DNA of 39,717 nucleotides from assembly GCA_017622505.1 (NCBI GenBank), contig JAGAQZ010000038.1, positions 1 through 39,717 on the forward strand. Direction: 5' to 3'. The notes under the pieces are model-generated. The model saw only the letters and a program-made list of their open reading frames with translations. It searched no databases and had not been told where the DNA came from. Position 1 is the first letter of the stretch; each line of letters begins with the position of its first letter. Source of the DNA: Lachnospiraceae bacterium (GTDB lineage Bacteria > Bacillota > Clostridia > Lachnospirales > Lachnospiraceae). Of this stretch, positions 4,570 to 10,508 are shown piece by piece. A program made the translations under genes and the position numbers.

Positions 4570-5555
4570 TGAAAAAAAATTCAAAGACAATATGCATATT
4601 ACTGGGCATTGCAGTAATGTGCATATTGCTTTGCTTATTAGTGGCAAAGCTTTATAAAAAACAAGTAAATACCGTAGATTATATTCAACCGGACCATGTC
4701 AGGGAAGAATATCTTGTGATTGAAGGTTTGGAAAAAGAGTATGAATTGCTTTTTCTTACGGATACGCATGTGATTGTGCAGTCGGAAGAAGATGATGCAC
4801 AGGTAACTGCCAACGCAGATGGAAGATACCCTGTTTTTATGGATGCGATAGGTGTTTCGGCGGCAGAGCAGTTTCCTTATTGGATGAAGTATGCCAACGA
4901 ACGGGAAGTGGATGCTGTACTGTTTGGCGGGGATATTATTGATTACCCGTCATCTGCCAATATAGATTTCTTAAATGAAAATGTATCCAAATTGGATATG
5001 CCCTACCTGTATACGTTAGGTAATCACGATTGGACTTACCCTTGGGAATACATGACCGACAAGGCAAAGCAGGAATATATTCCGATGTTACAGCCTGTGA
5101 TTGCGGAGAACGGAACCATAGAAATTATGGATATGGAAGATTTTCTTGTGGTATCGGTAGACAATAGTTCCGGACAGGTACATCCGGATGCTTTGGAGCA
5201 GTATTTACAGGTTTTAGAGCAGGGGAAACCGGTCATTGTATTGGTTCATGTGCCTTTTATGACCCAATCCGTGCTTGGAAAAGCCAAAGAAGTTTGGGAT
5301 TCGCCCGTAGTAATAGGTGCAGGAAACTATGGCGGTATTTATCCATCAGAGGAGTCGACGGCTTTTATAGAGGCGACAACGGCAGAGGACAGCCCGGTCA
5401 TAGCGGTTTTGGCAGGGCATGTTCACTTTTATGATAAAGATTATATAGACGGCGAGAAACCGGTAATTCAAATTGTAGGTAACGCGGGTTTTGTGCGAAG
5501 CGGAATTGTTTTACACATAACCGGTGATGAAATAAAAGAGGAGGACTCAGAATGA
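4569..5555 (+). CDS. Membrane-anchored calcineurin-like metallophosphoesterase
   Basis: A 328-aa protein with one N-terminal hydrophobic segment (residues ~8-27) and a calcineurin-like metallophosphoesterase domain likely on the outer face of the membrane. Metal-binding blocks appear in the right order: LTDTH (~65), GGDIID (~117), GNHDW (~150), VHVPF (~227) and AGHVHFYD (~282). The substrate cannot be told from sequence. It overlaps glgP by 1 nt upstream and the hydratase gene by 4 nt (ATGA) downstream, so the three genes form one transcription unit, although no shared pathway is obvious. It could be a phosphodiesterase or a nucleotidase. Confidence 0.85.
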
Positions 5556-7840
5556 TTCAGTTAAGCAACAGCGGTGCATATCTTATTAACGGTACCGAGC
5601 TTGTGTATGACAATGCCGATGCGGCAGCAATCATTGCGCAGCAAACCGGTAAGAATGTAACCGAGGCAGAAGCAAGAAAAGAAACTATCGCTTATGGAAT
5701 TTTAGAAAGCCATAATACTTCAGGTAATATGGATAAGTTAAAAATCAAATTCGATAAGCTTACATCCCACGATATTACTTTCGTAGGTATTATCCAGACC
5801 GCAAGAGCGTCAGGACTTGAAAAGTTCCCCATTCCTTACGTACTTACCAACTGCCACAATTCACTTTGTGCAGTAGGCGGTACGATCAATGAAGATGACC
5901 ACATGTTTGGTCTTTCTTGTGCAAAGAAGTACGGCGGTGTTTATGTACCCCCTCATCAGGCAGTTATCCATCAGTTTGCCCGAGAAATGATGGCAGGCGG
6001 CGGCAAGATGATTCTTGGTTCCGACTCTCATACACGTTACGGTGCTTTGGGTACTATGGCTATGGGCGAAGGCGGTCCCGAGCTTGTAAAACAGCTTTTA
6101 AACCAGACATATGATATTAACATGCCGGGCGTTGTTGCAGTTTATATGACAGGCGCACCTGCGAAGGGCGTTGGTCCTCAGGACGTAGCTCTTGCAATTA
6201 TCGGTGCGGTATTTGCAAACGGTTATGTTAAAAATAAAGTAATGGAATTCGTAGGCCCCGGTGTAGCATCATTAACACCTGACTTCCGTATCGGTATTGA
6301 CGTAATGACTACCGAAACAACCTGTCTTTCATCTATCTGGCAGACAGATGCCCAGGTAGAAGAATTCTATGAGATTCACGGACGTAAGGAAGAATACAAG
6401 GAGTTAAATCCCGGAGCAGTGGCATACTATGACGGCGTAATTACCGTTGATTTGTCTGCAATCAAGCCTATGATTGCTATGCCTTTCCATCCCAGCAATA
6501 CCTACACCATTGATGAATTAAATGCTAACCTTATGGACATTTTAGATGATGTTGAGAAGCGTGCGGCAGTAAGCCTTGATGGCGCTGTTGATTACACCTT
6601 AAAAGATAAGGTTCGTAACGGAAAGCTTTACGTAGATCAGGGTATTATCGCTGGTTGTGCCGGCGGCGGATTTGAGAATATCTGCGCGGCTGCGGACATT
6701 TTAAAAGGCAAGTTTATCGGTTCTGACGAATTTACCTTAAGCGTATATCCCGCATCTATGCCCGTATATATGGAATTGGTGAAAAACGGTTGTGCTGCAA
6801 CCATTATGCAGTCCGGTGCCATTATGAAGACTGCATTCTGTGGGCCTTGCTTCGGTGCAGGGGATACACCCGCAAACAATGCACTCAGTATCAGACATTC
6901 AACCCGTAACTTCCCGAACCGTGAAGGTTCTAAGCTTCAGAACGGCCAGATTTCTTCTGTTGCTCTTATGGATGCACGTTCTATCGCAGCAACAGCGGCT
7001 AACAAGGGTATCCTTACTTCTGCAGCTGAATTTGACGGTGATTTAAGCAAGTATAAATACTACTTTGACAGCAGCATTTATGCAAATCGTGTATACGATT
7101 CCAAGGGTGTGGCTGATCCTTCAGTGGACATTAAGTTTGGTCCCAATATCAAGGACTGGCCTGCAATGTGTGAATTAACAGATGACTTACTTCTTAAAGT
7201 AGTATCTGAAATTCACGACCCCGTAACAACAACGGATGAGTTAATTCCTTCCGGAGAAACTTCATCTTTCCGTTCCAATCCTTTGGGCTTGGCTGAGTTC
7301 ACACTTTCCAGAAAAGACCCTGCTTATGTAGGCAGAGCCAAAGAAGTGCAGAAGGCTGAGAAGGCAAGAGAAGACGGAAAGTGCCCCGTAGAAGAAATTG
7401 CTGAGTTAAAAGTAGTATACGATACGATTGAAGCAAACTTCCCCGGCGTGGAGAAGAAGAACATCGGTATCGGTAGCACAATCTTTGCGGTAAAACCCGG
7501 CGACGGTTCTGCCCGTGAACAGGCTGCAAGTTGCCAGAAGGTACTTGGCGGATGGGCAAACATTGCAAACGAATATGCAACCAAGAGATATCGTTCCAAT
7601 TTGATTAACTGGGGTATGCTTCCCTTCTTAATTCCCGAAGGCGAGCTTCCTTTCAAGAACTTGGATTACATCTATGTACCCGGCATCCGCAAGGCAATCG
7701 AAGATAAGACCGAGATTATCAAGGCTTATACAATTGCTGACGGCAAGACCACAGAATTCGAACTTAAGGTTGGCGAATTAACCAACGAAGAACGTGAAAT
7801 CATTCTGAAAGGTTGCTTGATTAACTACAATAGAATTTAA
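5552..7840 (+). CDS. Aconitase-family hydratase (YbhJ-like)
   Basis: A 762-aa member of the aconitase superfamily, predicted to carry a [4Fe-4S] cluster. The three cluster cysteines can be placed in [11 protein letters not shown] (equivalent to the usual GSCTNS) and in the CGPC motif of [11 protein letters not shown]. The swivel domain follows at the C terminus, with SAREQAA where canonical aconitases read SSREHAA. This length and the diverged blocks fit the YbhJ-like 'hydratase' group rather than AcnA or AcnB, so the substrate is uncertain. Citrate/aconitate is possible but unproven. ATG 5552 follows GAGGAGG and overlaps the previous stop by 4 nt. A rho-independent terminator follows. Confidence 0.85.
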
Positions 7841-7887: not shown

Positions 7888-7959
7888 ATTGAATTAACAA
7901 CTGTTTTGTAGTAAGAGTTGATGAAATTACATATATTTATCACGCATTTTTATCGAAGC

Positions 7960-8106
7960 ACAAGAGCAAATCGTCTTATATTTTGTTCGAGCGGCTTTTG
8001 TGCCCGTCGGTACTTAGATTGCATTTTTTGCAATCTTATGTACCGTTACGTGGCACAATTAAGCGGAAGCGTCCGCGAGAACATATATAAGACAATTTGC
8101 TCTGTC
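7960..8106. repeat. Giant imperfect inverted repeat (147-nt hairpin)
   Basis: The two arms are nearly complementary over their whole length. Perfect outer blocks are AGAGCAAA (7963-7970) with TTTGCTCT (8096-8103) and GTCTTATAT with ATATAAGAC; TTGTGCC/GGCACAA and GGTAC/GTACC follow, and the apex is AGATTGCA (8016-8023) with TGCAATCT (8029-8036) around a loop of five T. The right arm carries an extra small hairpin (GCGGA/TCCGC, ~8063-8076). No transposase is nearby. It could be a MITE-like element, a cruciform site or part of a structured transcript. The 87-aa reading frame crossing it has no homology that I recognise and is not called. Confidence 0.85.
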
Positions 8107-8169
8107 CACTATATAAAACCGCCACTTTTTTATTTCGTGTCAATCTGTTTATTATTGGTAAAAACCTAT

Positions 8170-8197
8170 TTGTTTTTATAAAAAAGTGTGCTATCTT
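8170..8197 (+). promoter_or_regulatory. Extended -10 promoter for structured RNA
   Basis: TTGTTT (8170-8175), a 16-nt spacer, then TATCTT (8192-8197) preceded by the extended -10 TG at 8189-8190. The start would be near 8204, about 19 nt before the closing helix of the predicted RNA. Confidence 0.65.
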
Positions 8198-8203
8198 AAA
8201 CTT

Positions 8204-8600
8204 ACAAAAAATCTAAACGCAACAAGGTAGCGGATGTGTTCAAGGGGATACATACTATTAGACATGGATGCGACTTTGTTAAGTCGATAATCCGCTTCGG
8301 GTGGAGGTCAATTTTTTAAGGGACCGATGGAGCGGTGTCACTTTCAACTGTTGAGGTTTCTGTTGTAACCAATAACAAAGAAAGTGACATTTCTGTGAAT
8401 TCTGTAGCAGGAGCAACAATAGGGCGAAGTTGACATTGTGACGGACGTTTCTTAGAGGCTTGGGGTTCATTCGAAGTAGGGATAAACGGCTAAAGATTAT
8501 ATGTTTGTTACAGGGGTGAGTAATCAGTAATGTAGCGAACACCAAATGCATATATTATAGTGTTGACAGACAGATAGCTACCTTGGTGTAGCGAATGCGA
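8204..8600 (+). ncRNA. Candidate large structured RNA or long leader upstream of spoIID
   Basis: This stretch has no credible ORF but many nested helices. The ends pair through CAAGGTAGC (8223-8231) and GCTACCTTG (8577-8585), giving a closed ~363-nt domain. Inside are GCGGAT/ATCCGC (8230-8235/8290-8295, competing for two bases with the closing helix), CGACTT/AAGTCG (8271-8286, loop TGTT), TGTCACTTTC/GAAAGTGACA (8336-8345/8380-8389, perfect 10 bp, with GGTT/AACC further in) and GTTTGTTAC/GTAGCGAAC (8503-8511/8532-8540, two wobbles). A promoter lies just upstream and no terminator follows, so it could be a free RNA processed from, or a long 5' leader of, spoIID. I do not see the hallmarks of tmRNA, RNase P RNA or SRP RNA. 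The clostridial raiA-motif RNA is one class to compare, but I cannot confirm a match by eye. Confidence 0.6.
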
Positions 8601-8639
8601 GTTAATTGATAATATGTGGATTTGGAAAGAAGGATAAAA

Positions 8640-9554
8640 TTGAAAAAGTTGGAAAAGGAAGCGGTATTGAAAGAACGTGTGATTCTAGTCGGTGCAGTTT
8701 CCTTTTTCATTTTTATTTTACCTTATATATTGCACTTGGCGATAAACGGAATTCAGCCGGCGATGAATGTGGGATTCGAAGAAATTGATCAAACAATTCA
8801 GGTAGAGGTGGACGGAAGAACGGTGAGTATCCGTTTGGAGTCTTATTTGGTAGGGGCACTGGCGAGAAGTACGGAAAATAGGTATCAGGATGAAACCCTG
8901 AAAGCAGTGGCGGTTATTTTGCGAAGCAATGCCGTGTGCGCCATTATGGAAGAGCGTGCAGTGGACAGAGACAGCTTTTATACGGATGAAGAACTTCGGA
9001 TTCTCTGGGGTGAAGAATACGAAAAGAATTTACAACGATATCAGGACGCGGTGAAAGCCACGGAAGGTATCGTTATTTTTTATAATGGGGAGATTGCGGA
9101 GGTGCCTTTTCACAAGATAAGCGCAGGGGAAACGCGGGATGGTGAAATCTTGGCGCAAAACCTGCCTTATGTGCAGTCTGTGCCTTCTGCGGAGGATATG
9201 TATGCGGACGGATATTATGTGACAATGGAAATTGCAGGGGAGACGCTGGGCGGGGATTTCGCAATTGTATCCCGGGACCCTTGGGGTTATGTTCTGACTG
9301 TGAAAGTAAAAGGCGAGGAACTGTCCGGCGAAGAATTTCGCAGAAAATACGGCCTGCCTTCCGCTTGTTTTGAATATGATAAAAAAGAAGATTCTTACGT
9401 TTTTTATGTGCGGGGAAAAGGTCATGGTTTCGGGTTAAGCATATATGGTGCAGACGCTTTGGCCGGCAAAGGACGAAGTTTTTCGGAAATTTTACAGTAT
9501 TATTATCCCGGCATTGAAATTCGAAAAGAAAATCGCGAAGACATTCACGCGTAG
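8640..9554 (+). CDS. spoIID: Stage II sporulation protein D (SpoIID) family
   Basis: SpoIID/LytB-domain protein (304 aa from this start), a membrane-anchored peptidoglycan-cleaving protein used in engulfment of the forespore. An N-terminal membrane segment lies at about residues 13-33. The SpoIID domain includes the start block VDGRTVSIRLESYL and the C-terminal signature GKGHGFGLS-YGADALAGKG followed by YYPG. I chose TTG 8640 because AAGAAGGA lies 6-7 nt upstream; the in-frame GTG at 8616 would give 8 extra residues but has no ribosome site. The next gene is spoIIQ-like, the same order as spoIID-spoIIQ in C. difficile. Sigma-E control is expected from family knowledge; I found no convincing sigma-E box. 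Confidence 0.9.
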   Translation: MKKLEKEAVLKERVILVGAVSFFIFILPYILHLAINGIQPAMNVGFEEIDQTIQVEVDGRTVSIRLESYLVGALARSTENRYQDETLKAVAVILRSNAVCAIMEERAVDRDSFYTDEELRILWGEEYEKNLQRYQDAVKATEGIVIFYNGEIAEVPFHKISAGETRDGEILAQNLPYVQSVPSAEDMYADGYYVTMEIAGETLGGDFAIVSRDPWGYVLTVKVKGEELSGEEFRRKYGLPSACFEYDKKEDSYVFYVRGKGHGFGLSIYGADALAGKGRSFSEILQYYYPGIEIRKENREDIHA

Positions 9555-9641: not shown

Positions 9642-10508
9642 ATGAGAAGAAAAAAGAATAGTTTAAGAAAAGAAAAAATAATTATGATTTCCGCATCTGC
9701 TTTTGTGTTGACTGCATTGACCATGGCGGGTGTCTATGTAAGAGAGCAAAGCAAGGACAACGGAGAGTATCGCGTAGACTTAAGCGAGCTGGACGGACAA
9801 AGCGTAGCGGATAAAACCAGTGAAATCGCGGAGAATATTGGCGTGAATCAGCAGGATTTGATTGTAGCGGATGATTTGGACGCAGATCCTGATTTCTGGG
9901 AGGTGGATTCCCACGGAGTGGAGGCTGAACTTGCCGGGAAAACCGACGAAAAAGTAACTGCCGAGGAAGCCGGCGAAAATAACATTAACATATCAGAAAA
10001 TGTAATTTCGGACGATGATGCAACGCTTGCCGAAGGCGGTGAAGTGCAGACGCAGGAAGCGGGCGCAGAGCAGGTAATTATCGCAAATTATAATTTCCCG
10101 GCAGAACAGGCGCTTACCTGGCCTTTGTATGGGGATTTGATTATGAACTACAGTATGGACAAGACCGTTTATTTTAAAACGCTTGGACAGTATCGTTATA
10201 ATCCTGCATTGGTAATTAAGGCAGAAGTCGGTACTAATGTCATTTCTTCTGCAAACGGCGTTGTAAAAGAAGTTTACAGCAATAAAGAATTAGGTAATGG
10301 AATTGTCTTAGAAATCGGTGAAGGCTATGAAATTACCTATGGCCAGATGGATAATATCGCCGTTAATGCTGGAGATGTGGTGGAAACAGGTACTTTCTTA
10401 GGAACTGTGGCAGAGCCCAGCGTATATTATAGCAGTGAAGGAAGTAACCTTTACATGAAGATGACAAAAGACGGGGTGCCTGTGAATCCCATGGACGTTT
10501 TGCCTTAG
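9642..10508 (+). CDS. spoIIQ: SpoIIQ-like protein with degenerate LytM (M23) domain
   Basis: A 288-aa bitopic membrane protein: basic N terminus, TM at ~12-32, an acidic low-complexity linker (~50-150) and a C-terminal LytM/M23 fold (~158-288). SpoIIQ sits in the forespore membrane and pairs with SpoIIIAH to form the engulfment channel. All zinc ligands of active M23 peptidases are replaced: at the HxxxD position it reads NPALV (N187, V191), the YGH position is YGQ (Q235), and the second histidine of the HxH site is Y271. It is therefore very probably catalytically dead. ATG 9642 has GAGG 5 nt upstream. Position directly after spoIID and the sigma-F-type promoter support the SpoIIQ assignment over a generic M23 protein; spoIIID, which follows in C. 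difficile, is absent here. Confidence 0.8.
   Translation: MRRKKNSLRKEKIIMISASAFVLTALTMAGVYVREQSKDNGEYRVDLSELDGQSVADKTSEIAENIGVNQQDLIVADDLDADPDFWEVDSHGVEAELAGKTDEKVTAEEAGENNINISENVISDDDATLAEGGEVQTQEAGAEQVIIANYNFPAEQALTWPLYGDLIMNYSMDKTVYFKTLGQYRYNPALVIKAEVGTNVISSANGVVKEVYSNKELGNGIVLEIGEGYEITYGQMDNIAVNAGDVVETGTFLGTVAEPSVYYSSEGSNLYMKMTKDGVPVNPMDVLP

Follow-up and report, generated by a model that had tools for sequence, protein, structure and literature searches.

What occupies the stretch between the genes for aconitase and SpoIID in a Lachnospiraceae contig of 39,717 nucleotides (the window), where no credible gene was found? An earlier note on this DNA took the stretch for a large structured RNA with its own promoter and placed its end near 8600. 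We compared the window genome with 30 genomes of the same genus (31 in total). The features that define the locus are as follows.

5552-7840, + strand: aconitase gene (PF00330, 306 bits), the usual upstream neighbour of the RNA
8134-8143, + strand: upstream promoter box TTCGTGTCAA; the same box and spacing were seen by eye 5' of homologous RNAs
8154-8166, + strand: promoter box ATTGGTAAAAACC (genus consensus AGTTGGTGNAAAACCCCTTTT), from a pattern search of 31 genomes
8189-8197, + strand: extended -10 element TGCTATCTT, read in the sequence, with TG-N-TATANT retained in homologues
8204-8716, + strand: noncoding RNA gene, predicted transcript (promoter and terminator; 27 of 31 genus genomes; folding z -8.48)
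8628-9554, + strand: spoIID (ribosome site AGAAGGA at 8628-8634, likely TTG start at 8640; PF08486, 43.5 bits)
8650-8719, + strand: predicted intrinsic terminator inside the spoIID reading frame (hairpin 8650-8709, U-rich tract 8710-8719)
9642-10508, + strand: spoIIQ-like M23 peptidase gene, 3' of spoIID (PF01551, 61.6 bits)

Promoter, terminator and limits of the RNA gene

The open reading frames of the window left 8204 to about 8616 free of credible genes, as had been claimed, and none was found anywhere between aconitase and the spoIID start at about 8640. The spoIID product scored 155.7 bits against TIGR02870, under that model's cut-off of 234.75, and the product of 9642-10508 weakly matched the SpoIIQ model. 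Given the extended -10 element, the start of the RNA is predicted near 8204. The pattern of the promoter box at 8154-8166 gave 29 matches in the 31 genus genomes, against 10 for a reversed-pattern control, and 20 of the 29 stood directly 5' of the RNA; the box is probably an activator site or an upstream promoter element. The second box, TTCGTGTCAA, occurred exactly once in the window, and its one-mismatch matches were no commoner than chance.

The earlier note had reported that no terminator was present. We found a terminator hairpin and U-tract at 8650-8719, just beyond the limit considered there, which had been overlooked because it lies inside the first spoIID codons. The end of the RNA is therefore to be placed at about 8716 and not at about 8600, giving an RNA gene of about 510 nt. 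None of 60 synonymous recodings of spoIID equalled the window terminator (dG -23.6). A predicted promoter and a predicted terminator of its own are what is expected of an independent small RNA gene. The claim of a structured RNA was upheld by folding: the + strand of 8215-8600 folded better than shuffled sequences, with z -5.85 versus z -2.50 for the - strand, and the whole window transcript (8203-8725) gave z -8.48 with 40 shuffles.

Close to the RNA gene lies a dispersed element, a hairpin of 150 nt at 7958-8107 (z -8.8), with 43 matches in 7 of the 31 genus genomes, 13 of them in the window's genome, and no Rfam match. In 15 folded copies the centre was conserved, and the outer arms differed between most copies and paired within each.

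Distribution of the RNA

A first DNA search of 61 relatives gave syntenic, near-identical copies in four genomes, the window's among them, as well as three diverged genomes and two matches due to chance; L008 and L009, from the same search, were rejected as coding sequence. The aligned homologues have the promoter box, the core and the terminator in common, and their sequences split into three subtypes, A (that of the window), B and C. A covariance model built from 20 core sequences (R2) detected the RNA in 27 of the 31 genus genomes, the weakest best match having E 8.8e-6, and in 12 of the 13 genomes of best quality. The four genomes in which R2 had no match are 73-91% complete, and two weak extra matches in the genus (G030 C1, E 0.003; G008 C92, E 0.049) were left out of the copy count. 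A sequence-only model, R1, reached 14 of 31 genomes, fewer than the structure model, and its loci L037 and L042-L045 were rejected on reading as coding or unrelated sequence. The RNA gene occurs twice in tandem in G018; these two genes (L007, 500-1720) lie about 520 nt apart, with a promoter and a terminator on each.

When R2 was run on 327 genomes from other genera of the family, no match was obtained under stricter filters, which can lose weak matches. Among 391 genomes drawn from the class, five matched, namely the window's genome and four with weak matches (E 0.0008-0.0074) that we judged to be chance, a promoter of this kind being absent on reading. A family-wide search for the core pattern matched 16 of 299 genomes and its reversed control 15, which is chance level outside the genus. 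Phage and plasmid collections held no match to the RNA; three exact core patterns matched 0, 0 and 1 viral contigs, and the single match was inside a viral reading frame. Within the genomes searched, the RNA is a family of one Lachnospiraceae genus.

No Rfam family matched the whole window at gathering thresholds. A permissive scan of 7900-8900 (E up to 5) gave six weak matches, none near the cut-off, and a scan of ten homologous loci (E up to 0.5) gave no match in the RNA itself. These scans bear out the opinion that the RNA is not tmRNA, RNase P or SRP RNA. The raiA motif had also been raised, without confirmation of identity. Rfam contains the raiA-motif family, the window and the ten homologous loci had no raiA match, and raiA and comFC were not among the neighbours of the RNA in 27 genomes, as had been said for the window. 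Our literature search was limited and brought up no report of this RNA or of a spoIID terminator, which is not to be taken as absence from print; the available part of PMC11109978 mentions spoIID once, in a reference title.

The neighbours of the RNA in the 27 carrier genomes include aconitase, a ddl-like gene, spoIID, an M23 peptidase gene and others (names partly by eye). Aconitase was immediately 5' of the RNA in 19 of them. Downstream, spoIID was found in 4 of 27 and a ddl-like gene, named by eye, lay nearby in 13, with other genes elsewhere. A domain search detected SpoIID domains in 6 of the 31 genus genomes. Since the RNA is present in 27 of 31 genomes, SpoIID domains in only 6, and spoIID 3' of the RNA in only 4 of 27, the RNA is not primarily a spoIID leader. 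No SpoIID domain was detected in the other 25 genus genomes. Four genomes seem to have kept spoIID itself, and the genus gives the impression of losing sporulation.

Structure of the RNA

The following structural features were recognized in the window.

8356-8414, + strand: conserved core, from covariation, with helix P1 (8356-8362/8408-8414) around hairpin P2 (8379-8383/8390-8394)
8384-8405, + strand: within the core, P2 loop GUGACA at 8384-8389 (GUGAC(A/G) in the family), then UUCUGU at 8400-8405
8332-8439, + strand: helix 8332-8340/8431-8439 of subtype A, seen in G000, G027 and G019, by which the rod continues outward beyond the core
8503-8540, + strand: hairpin in the fast-evolving 3' part, with two-sided changes in G027

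In 20 sequences, 93.7% of the P1 and P2 cells were paired, versus 44-60% with slid partners, and the covariation score was 0.568, versus 0.086-0.155 slid and 0.241 shuffled. In an alignment of 28 matches (25 distinct rows) that was fitted to the model, 95.0% were paired and the score was 0.580, versus 0.075-0.144 slid. Two of five pair measures (pairs with two-sided changes, and further pair types) were not clearly above shuffles in either alignment. P1 and P2, as predicted helices, are supported by compensatory change, and the RNA is a new covariation-supported family missing from the Rfam release searched.

All 27 full-length copies, which come from 26 genomes (G009, found later, was left out), folded better than their shuffles, with z from -1.92 to -8.67 and 26 of the 27 below -2. 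When sequences were folded singly, P1 had a probability of at least 0.70 in 22 of 27 copies and P2 of at least 0.6 in 24; two subtype-C copies showed neither P1 nor P2. The helix at 8332-8340/8431-8439 has changed pairs in G019. Subtypes B and C are predicted to have additional helices, which build a long rod that carries the core at its tip, and side hairpins too.

Identity to the window in three relatives was 91-97% over 8206-8480 versus 43-74% over 8490-8625. The three helices quoted in the earlier note are all present in the window (9/9, 10/10 and 9/9 standard pairs). The end-to-end helix (8223-8231/8577-8585) does not hold as a domain-closing element: G027 has lost 2 of its 9 pairs, G005 3 and G019 7, and with 43-74% identity in the 3' part it falls in a fast-evolving region. 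Across the four syntenic relatives the 10-bp stem (8336-8345/8380-8389) does not vary and is thus uninformative there; it is not supported as a conserved fold, its 5' arm being missing in subtypes B and C and its pairing making use of P2 bases. The 9-bp stem (8503-8511/8532-8540) is supported, with 9/9 pairs in G027, three of them with two-sided changes, 8/9 in G005 and 6/9 in G019.

A terminator in the first codons of spoIID

Homologues without spoIID close with the same kind of terminator hairpin (GGAAACYG...CRGTTTCCTTTTTC). In the genomes compared, the predicted terminator was shown to sit in the first spoIID codons where spoIID is present and to be retained where spoIID is gone. Of 12 subtype-B RNAs, 11 have GAGGTGTC and ATGAATTTA 5' of the terminator, a combination similar to the ribosome site and start of spoIID in other genera (L131, L135 and L142 among them). 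A domain search gave no SpoIID match in the subtype-B genomes, several of whose assemblies are incomplete. We read the sequence before the subtype-B terminator as a remnant of the ribosome site and start codon of spoIID, retained because the RNA needs the terminator.

The best 80 loci of an aconitase search yielded 17 spoIID genes of other genera, which with 4 of the window genus made 21. In twenty of the 21, the first 48 codons contain a hairpin with a U-rich tract after it (dG -19.5 to -34.2), and in 19 at most 2 of 60 synonymous recodings were as strong, the exceptions being L141 (15 of 60 recodings as strong) and L096 (no embedded terminator). As a control from the same 80 loci, 18 of 118 frames with a hydrophobic N-terminus reached a strength of -19, 15 of them being spoIID; only 2 of 200 sampled frames without a hydrophobic N-terminus were as strong. 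The control frames were chosen mechanically, and because starts were picked in this way the spoIID genes of L110 and L120, strong in the recoding test, are missing from the control. The U-rich tract codes for part of the SpoIID membrane helix, and embedded hairpins that differ in sequence between subgroups have two-sided changes. Judged from recoding, the predicted terminator in the spoIID 5' coding region exceeds what the protein requires.

At 15 of the 17 other-genus loci no terminator was seen between the upstream gene and spoIID. L096, which has no embedded terminator, has one in the upstream gap instead (dG -22.0), and L098 has a doubtful one in an 836-nt gap that probably stems from a missed upstream gene. 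At most outgroup loci (e.g. L142), the gene 5' of spoIID encodes a protein with the shared C-terminus GIFLYENG...QHLD; the one such protein tested had no Pfam match.

We also looked upstream of spoIID for a promoter and for masking of the ribosome site. The element CATACAAT, which we take to be a sigma-E-like -10, was found at -23 or -24 in nine spoIID genes of other genera that were used for training. In eight further spoIID genes, five outscored at least 98 of 100 shuffles, L114 outscored 94 and L096 95, and L141 did not stand out. The ribosome site was less accessible by at least 0.08 with 60 nt of upstream context than with shuffled upstream sequence in 12 of 17 genes; accessibility was higher in L109 and L096 and equal within 0.03 in three. 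In the window's clade, a sigma-E-like site was not found upstream of spoIID (26 to 71 of 100 shuffles were as good, with a model trained on other genera), and upstream-context folding did not clearly mask the spoIID ribosome site.

A proposed model for spoIID and the RNA

The spoIID product degrades the cell wall and is required by the mother cell alone. The data can be arranged into a double lock on spoIID across Lachnospiraceae, combined with one genus's reuse of the terminator as the 3' end of a trans-acting RNA; we regard this scheme as a real possibility that falls short of being probable. The terminator in the first spoIID codons would halt untranslated transcription coming from the upstream gene, and in long transcripts an arm 5' of the sigma-E start would fold the spoIID ribosome site away. 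Transcripts from the sigma-E promoter would lack this arm and be translated at once; the ribosome, in translating spoIID, would cover the 5' arm of the terminator and melt it, so that RNA polymerase passes. Because the window's clade lacks a sigma-E-like site and clear masking of the ribosome site, the double lock is proposed for other genera only; in the window's clade, the predicted embedded terminator is the one part of it that was shown. In this one genus, the RNA may have taken over the terminator that insulates spoIID from upstream transcription in other Lachnospiraceae, so that the built-in terminator became the 3' end of a trans-acting RNA gene and was retained after spoIID was lost. 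The RNA would be made in growing cells, and its invariant GUGAC loop and UUCUGU internal loop could be the place where a protein or a second RNA docks.

If so, a protein gene can lose its terminator to an RNA gene next to it, which then outlasts its neighbour. The terminator in spoIID would also explain, in a concrete and testable way, how a dangerous wall hydrolase is silenced in growing cells where it follows another gene by 49-188 nt without a terminator in between.

Alternative explanations

On the sequence evidence, we consider it likely that the region is a stand-alone noncoding RNA gene with the limits given above, independent of spoIID. That this RNA acts in trans is our best guess at its function, though one that we hold to be doubtful; the one basis for it is conservation without a fixed downstream gene, and no target or partner was found in this analysis. 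The earlier note had offered a choice between a processed RNA and a spoIID leader, and with its own terminator the RNA is for the most part neither. The second half of that choice survives in 4 of the 27 genomes, the window included, since there the RNA would also be the 5' end of any spoIID transcript made by read-through. One can picture a cis-acting leader of about 430 nt, the fold of which would determine whether transcription continues through the terminator into spoIID-spoIIQ. The promoter of the RNA is the only recognizable one 5' of spoIID in the window and three relatives, and the terminator overlaps the spoIID start, both of which fit a leader. We nevertheless find it unlikely, because 23 of the 27 genomes retain the RNA where the next gene is not spoIID, mostly without a SpoIID domain, because conservation is lowest next to spoIID (8490-8625), and because no antiterminator helix was identified.

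A small mRNA for a short conserved peptide is very improbable. Subtype B does have a ribosome site, an ATG and a 7-codon frame beside the terminator, and some subtype-C copies have GGAGG-ATG, but on reading the alignments no frame was common to subtypes A, B and C, and the core spacers vary by lengths not divisible by three. We give still less credence to a CsrB-like sponge whose GGA motifs would titrate CsrA. Such motifs are mildly enriched in most copies (14 in the window versus 10.9 expected); however, CsrA was found in 14 of 31 genomes, 15 of the 27 RNA carriers had no CsrA match, two CsrA carriers lack the RNA, and several GGA motifs of the window are paired in the predicted fold. It is just as hard to believe that the RNA body is a functionless untranslated spacer between a real vegetative promoter and a real terminator. 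No partner, target or phenotype is known that would speak against this, but P1 and P2 covary, and in the same three relatives the 5' part is kept far better than the 3' part. The stand-alone RNA gene remains the reading that we prefer.

Comparison with known systems

The raiA-motif RNA (ModT) is described, in the part of the source available, as a stand-alone structured RNA of Clostridia that acts in trans, affects sporulation and is reported from more than 2,500 species (PMC11706538). The RNA described here is likewise a stand-alone structured RNA of Clostridia, but unlike the raiA-motif RNA it is confined to one genus within what was searched, and it has no raiA match in Rfam. 6S RNA is also stand-alone and structured. 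The window had no RF00013 match, and 6S RNA was found separately in 28 of the 31 genus genomes; thus, the present RNA is neither 6S RNA nor its replacement. In G018 (C39) and G030 (C24), no more than about 1 kb separates 6S RNA from a gene whose product is a SpoIID-domain protein of 510-512 aa. OLE, ROOL and GOLLD are large orphan structured RNAs; like them, this RNA is long, structured and noncoding and forms its own transcription unit, whereas it is shorter, confined to a genus and without an Rfam match.

The pyrBI and trp leaders are cases of ribosome-mediated attenuation, as the BmrC/BmrD leader reportedly is. As in these systems, the formation of an intrinsic terminator at spoIID would depend on a translating ribosome, but this terminator occupies the opening codons of the very gene under control and not a leader peptide region. 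In the phage T4 lysozyme gene, a hairpin masks the ribosome site only in read-through transcripts. The arrangement proposed for spoIID differs in being combined with an in-frame terminator, and the masking arm is absent from the window's clade; by analogy with T4 lysozyme, the arm that would mask the spoIID ribosome site in several other genera lies 5' of the predicted sigma-E transcript start.
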